A stretch of 64,000 nucleotides of DNA from Aeromicrobium sp. 9AM (GTDB lineage Bacteria > Actinomycetota > Actinomycetes > Propionibacteriales > Nocardioidaceae). The stretch is from the NCBI RefSeq assembly GCF_902506105.1, contig NZ_LR733303.1, positions 1,116,001 through 1,180,000 on the forward strand, in the 5' to 3' direction. Positions 38 to 2,940 of the stretch are shown here, piece by piece. The notes below the pieces were generated by a model that was not told where the DNA came from, made no database searches, and was given only the letters and a program-made list of their open reading frames with translations. Both the position numbers and the translations under genes were made by a program. The number at the start of each line of letters is the position of its first letter. The first letter of the stretch is position 1.

Positions 38-592
38 ATGAAGAGCACTGCAGGATGGATCGGCCAGGTCGTCTCCTGGTTCGTCATCTTCGCGATGCTG
101 GCTGTCCTCGCGGTGTGCGTCCTGATCCCCAGGCTCGGCGGCGGCACGCCGTACACGATCCTGACTGGCTCGATGAGGTCGTCCTTGCCGCCGGGGACCC
201 TCATCGTCGTGAAGCCCACGTCGGCGGACAACGTCGACATCGGAGACGTCATCACCTTCCAGATCGAGAGCGGGAAACCGACTGTCGCGTCGCACCGCGT
301 CATCGGCAAGACCGTCGCCGACGACGGCAGCCCGCGCCTCATCACGAAGGGCGACGACAACGCCGCCGCCGATTCCGACCTCGTACGGCCAGAACAGATC
401 CGCGGCAAGCTCTGGTACTCCGTGCCGGTCCTGGGTCGCGCCAACACCCTGCTCGACAAGTCACAGCACCAGACCATCGTGCTGGCGGTGGGTGGCGGGC
501 TGCTCATCTATGCCGCGTTCATGCTCGTGTCCGCCGCGACGGACTCCCGTCCAGCTCGCGCATCGCGACGCAAGCTGGAGGCCGCAGCATGA
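38..592 (+). CDS. SipW-type signal peptidase I
   Basis: Membrane-bound type I signal peptidase of the SipW/archaeal-ER subtype, expected to cleave signal peptides at the outer face of the cytoplasmic membrane. There is a membrane segment near residues 12-31, catalytic Ser45 in GSMRSS, and His86 in SHRV where ordinary bacterial enzymes carry Lys. A GDDN box lies near 105-108 and a second membrane segment near 146-165. The gene overlaps the next one by ATGA, so it opens a translationally coupled four-gene unit. The Ser-His dyad is family knowledge. That the downstream proteins are its substrates is inference from the neighbourhood. Confidence 0.88.
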   Translation: MKSTAGWIGQVVSWFVIFAMLAVLAVCVLIPRLGGGTPYTILTGSMRSSLPPGTLIVVKPTSADNVDIGDVITFQIESGKPTVASHRVIGKTVADDGSPRLITKGDDNAAADSDLVRPEQIRGKLWYSVPVLGRANTLLDKSQHQTIVLAVGGGLLIYAAFMLVSAATDSRPARASRRKLEAAA

Positions 593-1215
593 AGCGTCTC
601 CTGAGCATCGTCATGGCCCTGGGCGTGGTGCTCCTCGCCGGTCCGGCCTCTGCCGCCGATGAGATCGGCCTCAGTCGCAACGGCGTCACGTTCGCCTCCT
701 CACTCAGTGGCTCGCTCTTCGACCCAGCGTTCACGTGGGTGCCGGGAGATGTCGAGTCCGAGACGTTCTACGTACGCAACCAGGGCGGCGACACGGCTCG
801 GCTGACGGTCGACATCGTCGGCGAGCAGGTCAGCGACCTGATCGAGTCGGGCGACCTGAAGGTCACAGCGAGCAGCGGCAGCCAGGCCAAGACGGTCTCG
901 AGTGCCGGCGACCACAGGCTCCTGAACATCCCAGACGTCGAGGCCGATCAGATCGTGCCGGTCACCGTGACGGTGGCGTTCGAGGACGCATCGACCAACG
1001 AGACACAACTGCTCTCCAGCGACCTGACCTTCCGCATCAACCTCAAGCAGACCTCGACCGTCCTCGGCGAGGACGACAACGACGACAACGGACCGCTGCC
1101 CGACACGGGTGCGCCCGGTCTCTGGATCTTCGGCCTCGGCTCGGTCCTTCTCGGAACAGGTGTCGCGATCGTCTCGCGCCGCCGCGAAACCCAACAGGGA
1201 GAATCCCATGTCTAA
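589..1215 (+). CDS. LPXTG-anchored surface protein
   Basis: A 208-residue secreted protein predicted to be covalently attached to the cell wall. It has a conventional Sec signal peptide (residues 1-22, ending ASA before AD) and a beta-rich ectodomain. A PGD...YVRNQGG stretch near 52-67 resembles the PGD/N-G motif of TasA/camelysin proteins. It ends with the sortase signal LPDTG at 170-174, a hydrophobic span, and an RRRE tail. An acidic linker (EDDNDDN) precedes the anchor. It overlaps the signal peptidase gene upstream (ATGA) and the TasA-like gene downstream by 8 bases. No sortase gene lies in the window. The exact function is unknown; a coat or fibre anchor is plausible. Confidence 0.85.
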   Translation: MKRLLSIVMALGVVLLAGPASAADEIGLSRNGVTFASSLSGSLFDPAFTWVPGDVESETFYVRNQGGDTARLTVDIVGEQVSDLIESGDLKVTASSGSQAKTVSSAGDHRLLNIPDVEADQIVPVTVTVAFEDASTNETQLLSSDLTFRINLKQTSTVLGEDDNDDNGPLPDTGAPGLWIFGLGSVLLGTGVAIVSRRRETQQGESHV

Positions 1216-1816
1216 CCACCTGCCTCCGCGTACGGCCTCCGGCCTGAAGCGCATCAAGTCGACCCGCGTTCGCGCGCTGTTGAGCCTCGGCATGGTGTTC
1301 GGCCTCGGTGCCGTCGGGACGCTGGCCTATTGGACGGACTCCGCGACCCTGGCGGGCGGCTCGTTCATCGCAGGCAATCTCGACATCAAGCTCGGCTCGC
1401 CTGCGCCCGGCGTGGACAACAGCCCGGCGCAGTTCACCACCGACTTCGCGATGACGAACATGCAGCCCGGCGACTCGAAGGCGGCCATCGTCACCGTACG
1501 CAACTCCGGTTCCATCGGCTTCACCTACACCGCGACCGGAGTGACGAGCGGGGGTGCACTGGCCTCGCTGCTCTCGTTCAAGGTGGTCCCTGGCGGCGCC
1601 TTGAGCGGCACGACCGACTGCACCGGAACGGCGAGCTTCACCGGGACCATGGCCTCGACCCAGAACGTGATCACGGCCAACCGCCCGCTCGCCGCGAGCG
1701 GCGGCAACGAGTCGTTCTGCGTCGTGGCCACCCTGCCCACCGGCACCACGTCGGGCCAGGGCACGAGCGCGACAGCATCCTTCACGTTCAACGCCAAGCA
1801 GGTCGGAGCCCCGTAA
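1208..1816 (+). CDS. TasA/camelysin-like SipW-dependent exported protein
   Basis: A 202-residue exported protein with the hallmark SipW-type leader. A basic N region (residues 14-22) is followed by a hydrophobic core at 23-40 and then AYWTD at 40-44. The downstream sequence has the TasA-family pattern SFIAGNLDI at 52-60 and a PGD...VTVRNSG motif near 87-101. Cleavage by a SipW enzyme just before YWTD is expected from the family. TasA-like proteins form extracellular fibres in Bacillus; that role here is inference. The ATG at 1208 gives a start inside the end of the LPXTG gene. The stop overlaps the next start (TAATG), so all four genes are coupled. Confidence 0.85.
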   Translation: MSNHLPPRTASGLKRIKSTRVRALLSLGMVFGLGAVGTLAYWTDSATLAGGSFIAGNLDIKLGSPAPGVDNSPAQFTTDFAMTNMQPGDSKAAIVTVRNSGSIGFTYTATGVTSGGALASLLSFKVVPGGALSGTTDCTGTASFTGTMASTQNVITANRPLAASGGNESFCVVATLPTGTTSGQGTSATASFTFNAKQVGAP

Positions 1817-2940
1817 TGTCCCGGCGCAAGCTGGCGAAAGCCAAGGCGAGGCGGGCCGCGAAGGCTCGTGCGGTCCAGGCCGCAAAACATGAGGCGATCG
1901 AGGCGAAGGCGCTGCTGACCGCCGAGAAGCCCAAGAGCCGGGTCCGACGCATGTTCTCGGTCAAGGGTCTTCGTGAAGGACTGCTGACCTTCGGCGCGGT
2001 CGCCGGCGTCTTCTGCCTCCTGCTGGCCGCTGCGTCGTTCGCGTTCGGCATCAAGCCGATCATCTTCCGCTCGGGATCGATGTCCCCGTCGATCCAGACC
2101 GGTGCGCTCGCCATCTCGCAGTCGGTCGATGCCAAGGACCTGGCGATCGGCGACGTCGTGACGGTCAAGACCGACGCCGGCGTCCGGGTCACCCACCGGG
2201 TCAAGGACCTGACCTTTGCCAACGGCAAGGCCACGATGGTGCTCAAGGGCGATGCGAACAAGGTGCCCGACGACCACGTCTACATCGTGCGTTCGGCCGA
2301 TCGAGTCCTCTTCGACATCCCCAAGGCGGGCTATGTGGTCAGCTGGCTGTCCGGCCCGACGGGTATCTTCGCCGGCGGTCTCCTGGCGGGCCTCCTGCTG
2401 CTGACGGCGTTCGGCCCGGGCACGCGCAACCAGCGCAAGCCCGGGACGCGCAAGCTGTTCGGCATCTCGATCGCGACCATCACGGTGGGACTCATCTCGA
2501 CGGGCGTCGGCGGGTCGACGAACACCCAGGCGTACTTCACGGATGCGGCCAACCTGACGAGCGGCACGTTCACCGCGGGCAACTATCCGGGCGCCGATCC
2601 CGTGCCGCCTGCCCCGGTCATCACCGGGTGCACCGTGGCAAATGGTGAATCGGCAAACCAGATCACGTGGACCTGGGCCAACACGACCCCCGCGACCACC
2701 CCGGCCAACACGCAGTTCAAGATCACGTACTCGAACTTCGTGGGTGCTCCTCTGCCGTCGCCGGCCACCCAGAACCTGGCCGACAACACGTCGCCGTACA
2801 CGGGTCAGACCGTCACGTACAACGACTCGTCCGGCGACTTCGTCCTGACTGTCACCACGCCTGGCGGCACGTCGGTCTCGTCCAACAAGTACCGGTTCCA
2901 AGGCAAGAACAACGGGAAGACCTGCGCCCAGGTCCCGTGA
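1816..2940 (+). CDS. SipW-type signal peptidase fused to a SipW-substrate domain
   Basis: A 374-residue two-part protein. Residues 1-45 form a very basic Lys/Arg/Ala tail and 55-78 a membrane span. A SipW-type peptidase domain follows, with Ser88 (SGSMSPS), His127 (THRV) and GDAN at 145-148, then a second span near 182-199. After a basic loop (RNQRKPGTRK) a third hydrophobic segment at 215-233 leads into QAYFTDAANLTSGTFTAG. That is the cleavage-site signature of SipW-exported proteins. An ectodomain of about 130 residues with two Cys (272, 370) completes it. No stop codon or plausible start separates the halves, so enzyme and substrate-like module are one polypeptide. Self-processing or cleavage by the partner peptidase at 38-592 is inference. 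Confidence 0.85.
   Translation: MSRRKLAKAKARRAAKARAVQAAKHEAIEAKALLTAEKPKSRVRRMFSVKGLREGLLTFGAVAGVFCLLLAAASFAFGIKPIIFRSGSMSPSIQTGALAISQSVDAKDLAIGDVVTVKTDAGVRVTHRVKDLTFANGKATMVLKGDANKVPDDHVYIVRSADRVLFDIPKAGYVVSWLSGPTGIFAGGLLAGLLLLTAFGPGTRNQRKPGTRKLFGISIATITVGLISTGVGGSTNTQAYFTDAANLTSGTFTAGNYPGADPVPPAPVITGCTVANGESANQITWTWANTTPATTPANTQFKITYSNFVGAPLPSPATQNLADNTSPYTGQTVTYNDSSGDFVLTVTTPGGTSVSSNKYRFQGKNNGKTCAQVP

Follow-up and report, generated by a model that had tools for sequence, protein, structure and literature searches.

The gene at positions 1816–2940 of the window (the whole 64,000-nucleotide stretch of the Aeromicrobium sp. 9AM contig NZ_LR733303.1 that was analysed) encodes what we read, with a probability of about 0.7, as a dedicated signal peptidase of the SipW type (S26B) whose C-terminal tail is itself one of its substrates. 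As judged by comparison of related genomes, the fusion is real and conserved, not an artefact: a SipW-type peptidase is translated as one chain with a protein whose signal and cleavage region are of the SipW type. No published description of such a fusion was found in the open-access literature. Signal peptidases are usually seen as general or dedicated enzymes that act on other proteins. An enzyme joined to a cleavable substrate is a natural test of how a signal is held in the membrane window, and the fusion group as a whole is a natural test of cutting in cis versus in trans and of what divides signals that are cut from anchors that are not. The fusion likewise marks out for comparison a set of clusters for actinobacterial surface proteins (Aeromicrobium, Nocardioides, Rhodococcus, Cryobacterium and others) in which the gene pair occurs fused, overlapping or separate, and of which we found no description. 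The features discussed below are collected in Table 1.

Table 1. Features of the fused gene, its neighbours in the window and the second type of fusion. Coordinates are those of the window unless a locus is named; residue numbers are those of the 374-residue fused protein.
Feature	Position	Strand	Evidence
Canonical unfused SipW-type S26B signal peptidase, 184 aa; first module gene inside the window	38–592	+	TIGR02228 87.2 bits, E 1e-24
Secreted LPDTG cell-wall-anchored protein, 208 aa	589–1215	+	TIGR01167 LPXTG anchor 17.2 bits, cut-off 15.9
Stand-alone SipW-type (TasA/camelysin-like) substrate, 202 aa, site TLA↓YWTD	1208–1816	+	TIGR04088 29.0 bits, cut-off 19
Fused S26B peptidase–substrate, 374 aa	1816–2940	+	ORF, TIGR02228 profile, motifs, genus alignment
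First membrane span, about residues 56–77	1981–2046	+	Hydropathy (peak 61–79); helix 49–77 in predicted model
Catalytic Ser88 (SGSM box, starts at residue 86)	2077–2079	+	Invariant in 34/34 and 57/57 aligned fusions
Catalytic His127 (THR box; THRV starts at residue 126)	2194–2196	+	Invariant in 34/34 and 57/57
Asp box DANKVPD, Asp146 and Asp152	2251–2271	+	D146, N148 and D152 invariant in 34- and 57-row alignments
Second membrane span, residues 181–199	2356–2412	+	Hydropathy (peak 182–200), predicted model
Basic loop RNQRKPGTRK, n-region of internal signal	2413–2454	+	Sequence
Third hydrophobic segment, h-region of internal signal, residues 214–232	2455–2511	+	Hydropathy; helix 217–229 in low-confidence part of model
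Predicted cleavage point A239↓Y240 (TQA↓YFTD; QAYFTD starts at residue 238)	2530–2535	+	Ala at -1 in 57/57
Tail, 135 aa, 14.0 kDa (14,008 Da)	2533–2937	+	SipW-type motif N-terminally, then predicted fibronectin-III-like β-sandwich
S26B + LPXTG-like fusion	L149 1474–2679 (G452); L153 1498–2694 (G502)		Translated loci

The gene is a single open reading frame with an ATG start, a TGA stop and no internal stop codon, and both sets of motifs lie in that one frame, as the first-pass annotation of this DNA had claimed. Matches to the fused protein are present in 41 of 49 genomes of the genus, not every match being a fusion. A motif pattern that skips canonical SipW proteins with Thr at the start of the box picked 43 S26B proteins in the genus loci that were fetched. 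Of these, 34 are fused, including two from the genome under study, and nine are not; the genus alignment consists of these 34 fusions, a fetched subset of the genus matches, and leaves out the nine unfused peptidases. A scan of named genomes with one peptide pattern kept 80 of 98 relatives, a biased sample in which some strains of the genus alignment recur. Homologous fusions in actinobacterial genomes, on which the first-pass annotation had made its proposal depend, were found in 63 of these 80 loci (67 proteins); 16 further loci carry peptidase and tail as separate neighbours and one an unfused peptidase with no neighbouring tail. A second alignment of 57 rows comprises the window protein and 56 of the 67 fusions of the named loci, omitting one protein truncated where its contig ends and ten more that were mostly judged near copies. 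The differences from the closest named relative are codon-like, falling mostly on third positions right through the junction (10, 4 and 17 at codon positions 1, 2 and 3 over residues 201–239). The idea that a sequencing error or the accidental loss of a stop codon joined two genes could appeal to the split pairs of relatives, but the 34 aligned genus fusions, the fused state of most named loci and the codon-like conservation across the junction exclude a merging frameshift, and we give this explanation practically no weight. No in-frame ATG, GTG or TTG occurs within residues 200–222, and a separate tail made from an internal start is ruled out for the window gene alone; in the corresponding stretch 39 of the 57 fusions have some such codon, which is ATG in 15.

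The named genera with fusions are Aeromicrobium, Nocardioides, Rhodococcus, Rhodococcoides, Prescottella, Arthrobacter, Psychromicrobium, Cryobacterium and Frigoribacterium. When the order was sampled, 77 of 196 genomes contained a match, and the 18 loci newly fetched from among the best matches are all fused. At phylum level 15 of 396 genomes match at 1e-15, and 15 newly fetched loci comprise ten with an unfused peptidase, two with a fusion of another type and three without a row fitting the motif pattern. By these sequence searches, the fusion is common in parts of Actinomycetota and not universal.

Residues 1–200 constitute an S26B-type signal peptidase, with a TIGR02228 score of 67 bits against a cut-off of 51.85, and the same profile matches all 57 aligned fusions at E 0.001. 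The first-pass annotation had described a SipW-type peptidase with Ser88, His127 and two spans, and these positions are confirmed. The SGSM, THR and Asp boxes hold what we take to be the Ser-His-Asp catalytic residues of S26B enzymes, without a Ser-Lys dyad, and the equivalents of Ser88, His127, Asp146 and Asp152 are invariant in both alignments (34/34 and 57/57). The predicted model is confident over the peptidase, with ten-residue means of at least 90 for residues 61–180, and the best solved structures for it are human SEC11C and SEC11A (7p2q and 7p2p). As a view of the signal docked in the active site the model is uninformative, with pLDDT below 50 at residues 232–247 and 249–252 of the junction.

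The basic loop and the third hydrophobic segment are followed by TQA↓YFTDAANLTSGTFTAG, which opens the 135-residue tail. Across the 57 aligned fusions the residue at -1 is always Ala, that at -3 is Thr, Ala or Ser in 53, the P2′ residue is aromatic in 49 (Phe in the window protein; eight lack an aromatic residue there) and Asp occupies the fourth position past the cut in 47. Within the genus alignment Ala239 is invariant, and Thr, Ala or Ser at -3 and Phe, Trp or Tyr at P2′ are found in 34/34. According to PMC10269814, an aromatic P2′ residue makes a site a poor one for LepB, and TasA, whose P2′ residue is Phe, is cut by SipW. A profile of the signal and cleavage regions of 56 fusions, the window protein being left out, was searched against 165 six-frame segments of the 17-kb stretch holding the gene cluster of this genome. 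It matches the window ORF at 7.5e-11, the stand-alone substrate just upstream at 1.2e-10, another such TIGR04088 substrate at 2.7e-6 and the two ‘alternate’ substrates of the cluster at 3.4e-4 and 3.8e-4, and weakly (0.073) the second fused ORF of the genome; it has no match in one shuffled set. At the level of sequence profiles, these matches show the fused signal region to be homologous to the signals of stand-alone SipW-type substrates, which bears out the earlier claim of a SipW-type cleavage-site region past the third hydrophobic segment. The TIGR04088 model (cut-off 19) has no match in the window tail at E 1 and matches just two of the 57 fusions at 0.001.

For topology, cleavage, cutting in cis or in trans and the role of the tail, we infer the following course. 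The chain would thread in–out–in–out through the first span, the extracytoplasmic catalytic domain, the second span and the short basic cytoplasmic loop, and the signal-peptide-like third segment would export the tail. The cut after Ala239 would be made by an S26B peptidase, in the simplest case by the fused enzyme in the same or a neighbouring molecule, and would free a 14-kDa, predicted fibronectin-III-like protein with the new N-terminus YFTDAANLTSGTFTAG, which would resemble the N-termini of the TasA/camelysin-like substrates of the same gene cluster. The enzyme would remain in the membrane and also process the stand-alone substrates, and the released tail may be a minor surface or matrix component.

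The third segment might instead be a permanent anchor, with the tethered ectodomain capturing or positioning substrates or docking the enzyme at the wall or the fibre base, a reading that we consider unlikely. The loop before the segment is net positive in 47 of the 57 fusions, and the stretch from the last charge to the cut, which comprises h-region and c-region together, has a median of 25 residues in the fusions versus 18 in 114 rule-picked stand-alone candidates, as an anchor might have it; in the separate tails of split pairs it is about 23 residues, by an automatic site rule that worked on 14 of 16 tails and picked an earlier Ala in five. For the human complex, PMC13385932 gives access as restricted to h-regions of under 18 residues. 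By this measure the long stretch would place the fusions near that border, so that slow or partial cleavage, or tethering, would be compatible with their signals. The tails also vary greatly, as binding modules do, from 108 to 470 aa, with Laminin_G_3 or bacterial Ig-like (Big) domains in single longer members. Against an anchor stand the Ala at -1 and the small residue at -3 in nearly all aligned fusions, which would have no obvious reason there, and the 16 named loci in which the tail is a protein by itself and has a signal of its own. Conservation of the site thus favours tail cleavage, and together with the split versions it makes cleavage the better reading than tethering. Tails of 470 and 455 aa belong to the fusions at L054 1336–3375 and L105 5968–7929.

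The fused gene is part of a cluster that, as read from the sequence, sits between pdxS-like and pdxT-like genes and consists of two tandem copies of one module (in the 17-kb stretch; L037 7064–14940, reaching into the window from upstream). The module order is ‘alternate’ substrate, canonical SipW, wall-anchored protein, TasA/camelysin-like substrate and fused peptidase; the first copy has an extra unfused paralogue, and its wall-protein gene is not among the ORFs listed by the script. Six TIGR02228 matches were found in the genome, five of them in the cluster and the sixth below the cut-off, and all four TIGR04088 matches lie inside the cluster. The stand-alone substrate encoded just upstream of the fusion scores 20.1 bits with PF12389, just below the cut-off of 22.5. 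With the chosen ATG starts, the genes of the window copy overlap by 4 nt (SipW and wall protein), 8 nt (wall protein and substrate) and 1 nt (substrate and fusion, TAATG), so that the module looks translationally coupled. The first-pass annotation had proposed that the fusion fixes protease and fibre protein at a dosage of 1:1; this would hold for the peptidase and its own tail, not for the TasA/camelysin-like substrate whose gene lies upstream. Upstream of the cluster (L037 1515–2114), an ORF that we read from its sequence as sortase-like, starting in the manner of a lipoprotein, is possibly the partner of the LPDTG protein.

A canonical SipW-type peptidase lies beside the fusion in the window and in 51 of the 63 fusion-bearing named loci. 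The fused enzyme could on this evidence be a mere carrier whose tail is processed in trans by the unfused SipW of the module; we regard this as quite unlikely, since the catalytic residues of the fusion are invariant and one genome appears to lack any other candidate. S26B proteins were counted in 14 genomes, picked mostly for having no canonical SipW in the fetched locus. Thirteen of the 14 have at least one further S26B match above the cut-off; in the remaining one, that of Cryobacterium ruanii (L115), the fusion is the sole TIGR02228 match over it, and a second match of 24.3 bits (cut-off 51.85) is a Ser-Lys enzyme of the LepB type. Two TIGR04088 substrates lie directly upstream of the C. 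ruanii fusion, one clear and one borderline (19.4 bits versus 19). Its sole standing above the cut-off makes it probable that the fused peptidase is active, and the fused enzyme should serve as SipW in C. ruanii unless the draft genome misses a gene; as far as this gene count goes, the case speaks against a dead or purely structural peptidase. The locus (L115 4667–7077), with two stand-alone SipW-type substrates and one fused peptidase, is a minimal system and a good model locus.

In the 16 split loci, which belong to Gordonia, Dietzia, Tomitella, Speluncibacter, Jongsikchunia, Prescottella and some Rhodococcus, the peptidase stops once its second span is complete, and the following ORF encodes a tail that has a signal peptide of its own. 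When eight fused tails are combined into a profile, this neighbouring ORF is recovered in 15 of the 16 loci, 14 times at 6.6e-11 or better; L112 is missed, L058 reaches just 1.9e-4, no better than signal-sharing upstream substrates, and L093 is found on the other strand only. In our own reading the P2′ residue is aromatic in just three of the 16 split tails. Taking the recurring start where several were possible, the peptidase and tail ORFs share 8 nt in 12 of the 16 loci (L058, L074, L084, L086, L087, L091, L092, L096, L111, L112, L117 and L125) and 4 nt in two, and lie 10 nt apart in two. An 8-nt overlap is also present in the window at 1208–1215, between the wall-protein and substrate genes, and at L117 a second tail-like ORF (1798–2661; fused-tail profile 2.7e-30) directly follows the first separate tail. 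On a quick tree with many weak forks, for which 12 of 68 canonical SipW rows were taken, those 12 form their own group and there are at least three changes between fused and split rows. With fused versions on one side and adjacent or overlapping split versions on the other, the close coupling of peptidase and tail is thus, on the gene arrangements compared, the constant feature and fusion its strongest form. The gene overlaps of the split versions, suggestive of coupled synthesis, and the joint conservation of catalytic and cleavage residues in one chain would also suit a zymogen, in which the tail signal acts as a pseudo-substrate that fills the active site in cis until it is cut and the enzyme is switched on after export of the tail; the existence of split versions without a covalent link makes this very improbable.

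The tail had been announced as an ectodomain of roughly 130 residues and about 14 kDa, in agreement with its computed length and mass. Modelled alone, it is predicted to be a fibronectin-III-like β-sandwich with a mean pLDDT of 77.6, and its best alignment to a fibronectin-III domain has a Z score of 9.9 and an r.m.s.d. of 2.9 over 96 residues. The best 50 structural matches listed have Z scores of 8.4–9.9 and are mostly fibronectin-III or receptor entries; a Foldseek search gives a best E of just 1.3e-2, and the Pfam fn3 model matches two of 26 tails (best E 5.3e-4), the window tail having no match. PF12389, the TasA/camelysin family of Pfam, has no match in the window protein at E 1 and none among the 26 tails at 0.1. 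Assignment of the tail to the TasA/camelysin domain thus lacks profile support, and no TasA-like entry is among the best 50 structural matches listed. The fibre-protein reading given to the tail in the first-pass annotation is probably wrong. Cys272 and Cys370 are kept in at least 90% of the rows of the 57-row alignment. Divergence is rapid in the tail, where 72 of 118 aligned residues differ from L047, compared with 29 of 140 in residues 61–200. By analogy, we would guess that it is a variable surface-exposed module, perhaps a minor subunit like TapA, which according to PMC9674648 is a minor component thought to anchor TasA and to speed its assembly.

SEC11A and SEC11C, the closest solved folds of the window model, are likewise of the Ser-His-Asp type; they differ in having no substrate tail and in belonging to a multi-subunit complex. 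We know of no substrate fused to Bacillus subtilis SipW. In the window module an unfused SipW is present besides the fusion, and the window protein scores 63.4 bits on the Bacillus SipW equivalog model NF046067, below its cut-off of 190. The fusion resembles SipW of the tapA–sipW–tasA operon in its S26B family, its two spans and its linkage to substrates with an aromatic P2′ residue (for TasA, as given in PMC10269814). Streptococcus pyogenes SipA is, to our knowledge, not an S26B Ser-His enzyme. SipA also differs from the window protein in having no fused substrate; it ranks third in Foldseek (E 6.1e-3) and is likewise signal-peptidase-like, being described in PMC4049620 as a protein of a pilus locus. 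The likeness of the fusion to TasA/camelysin (CalY) and TapA lies in its signal and mature N-terminal motif, which match those of the upstream TasA/camelysin-like protein; the differences are that the window tail is encoded in frame with the peptidase and that it is predicted to be fibronectin-III-like, whereas TasA is a jellyroll (PMC9674648).

A fusion of a second type is present in another genus (g39), where the fusion partner of an S26B peptidase is an LPXTG-like protein whose site is AHA↓A. The next gene there encodes a stand-alone tail with a SipW-type signal, TEA↓AWVD (L149) or TDA↓AWTD (L153). A signal peptidase is thus fused to a potential substrate at two joints. That the tail of the window protein is released as a secreted domain by self-processing in cis, and that the like fusion at the second joint reflects recurrent delivery of peptidase and surface protein in equal amounts, is a proposal we put forward tentatively, as less probable than its opposite. 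Matches occur in 39 of 59 genomes of the g39 genus; six, including the query's own, extend over nearly the full fused length, and in nine genomes the peptidase and substrate parts are neighbouring separate matches. From these matches and the translated loci (L149, L153 and L150, the last from a further genome of the genus), the LPXTG-like fusion is apparently split in other genomes of that genus.
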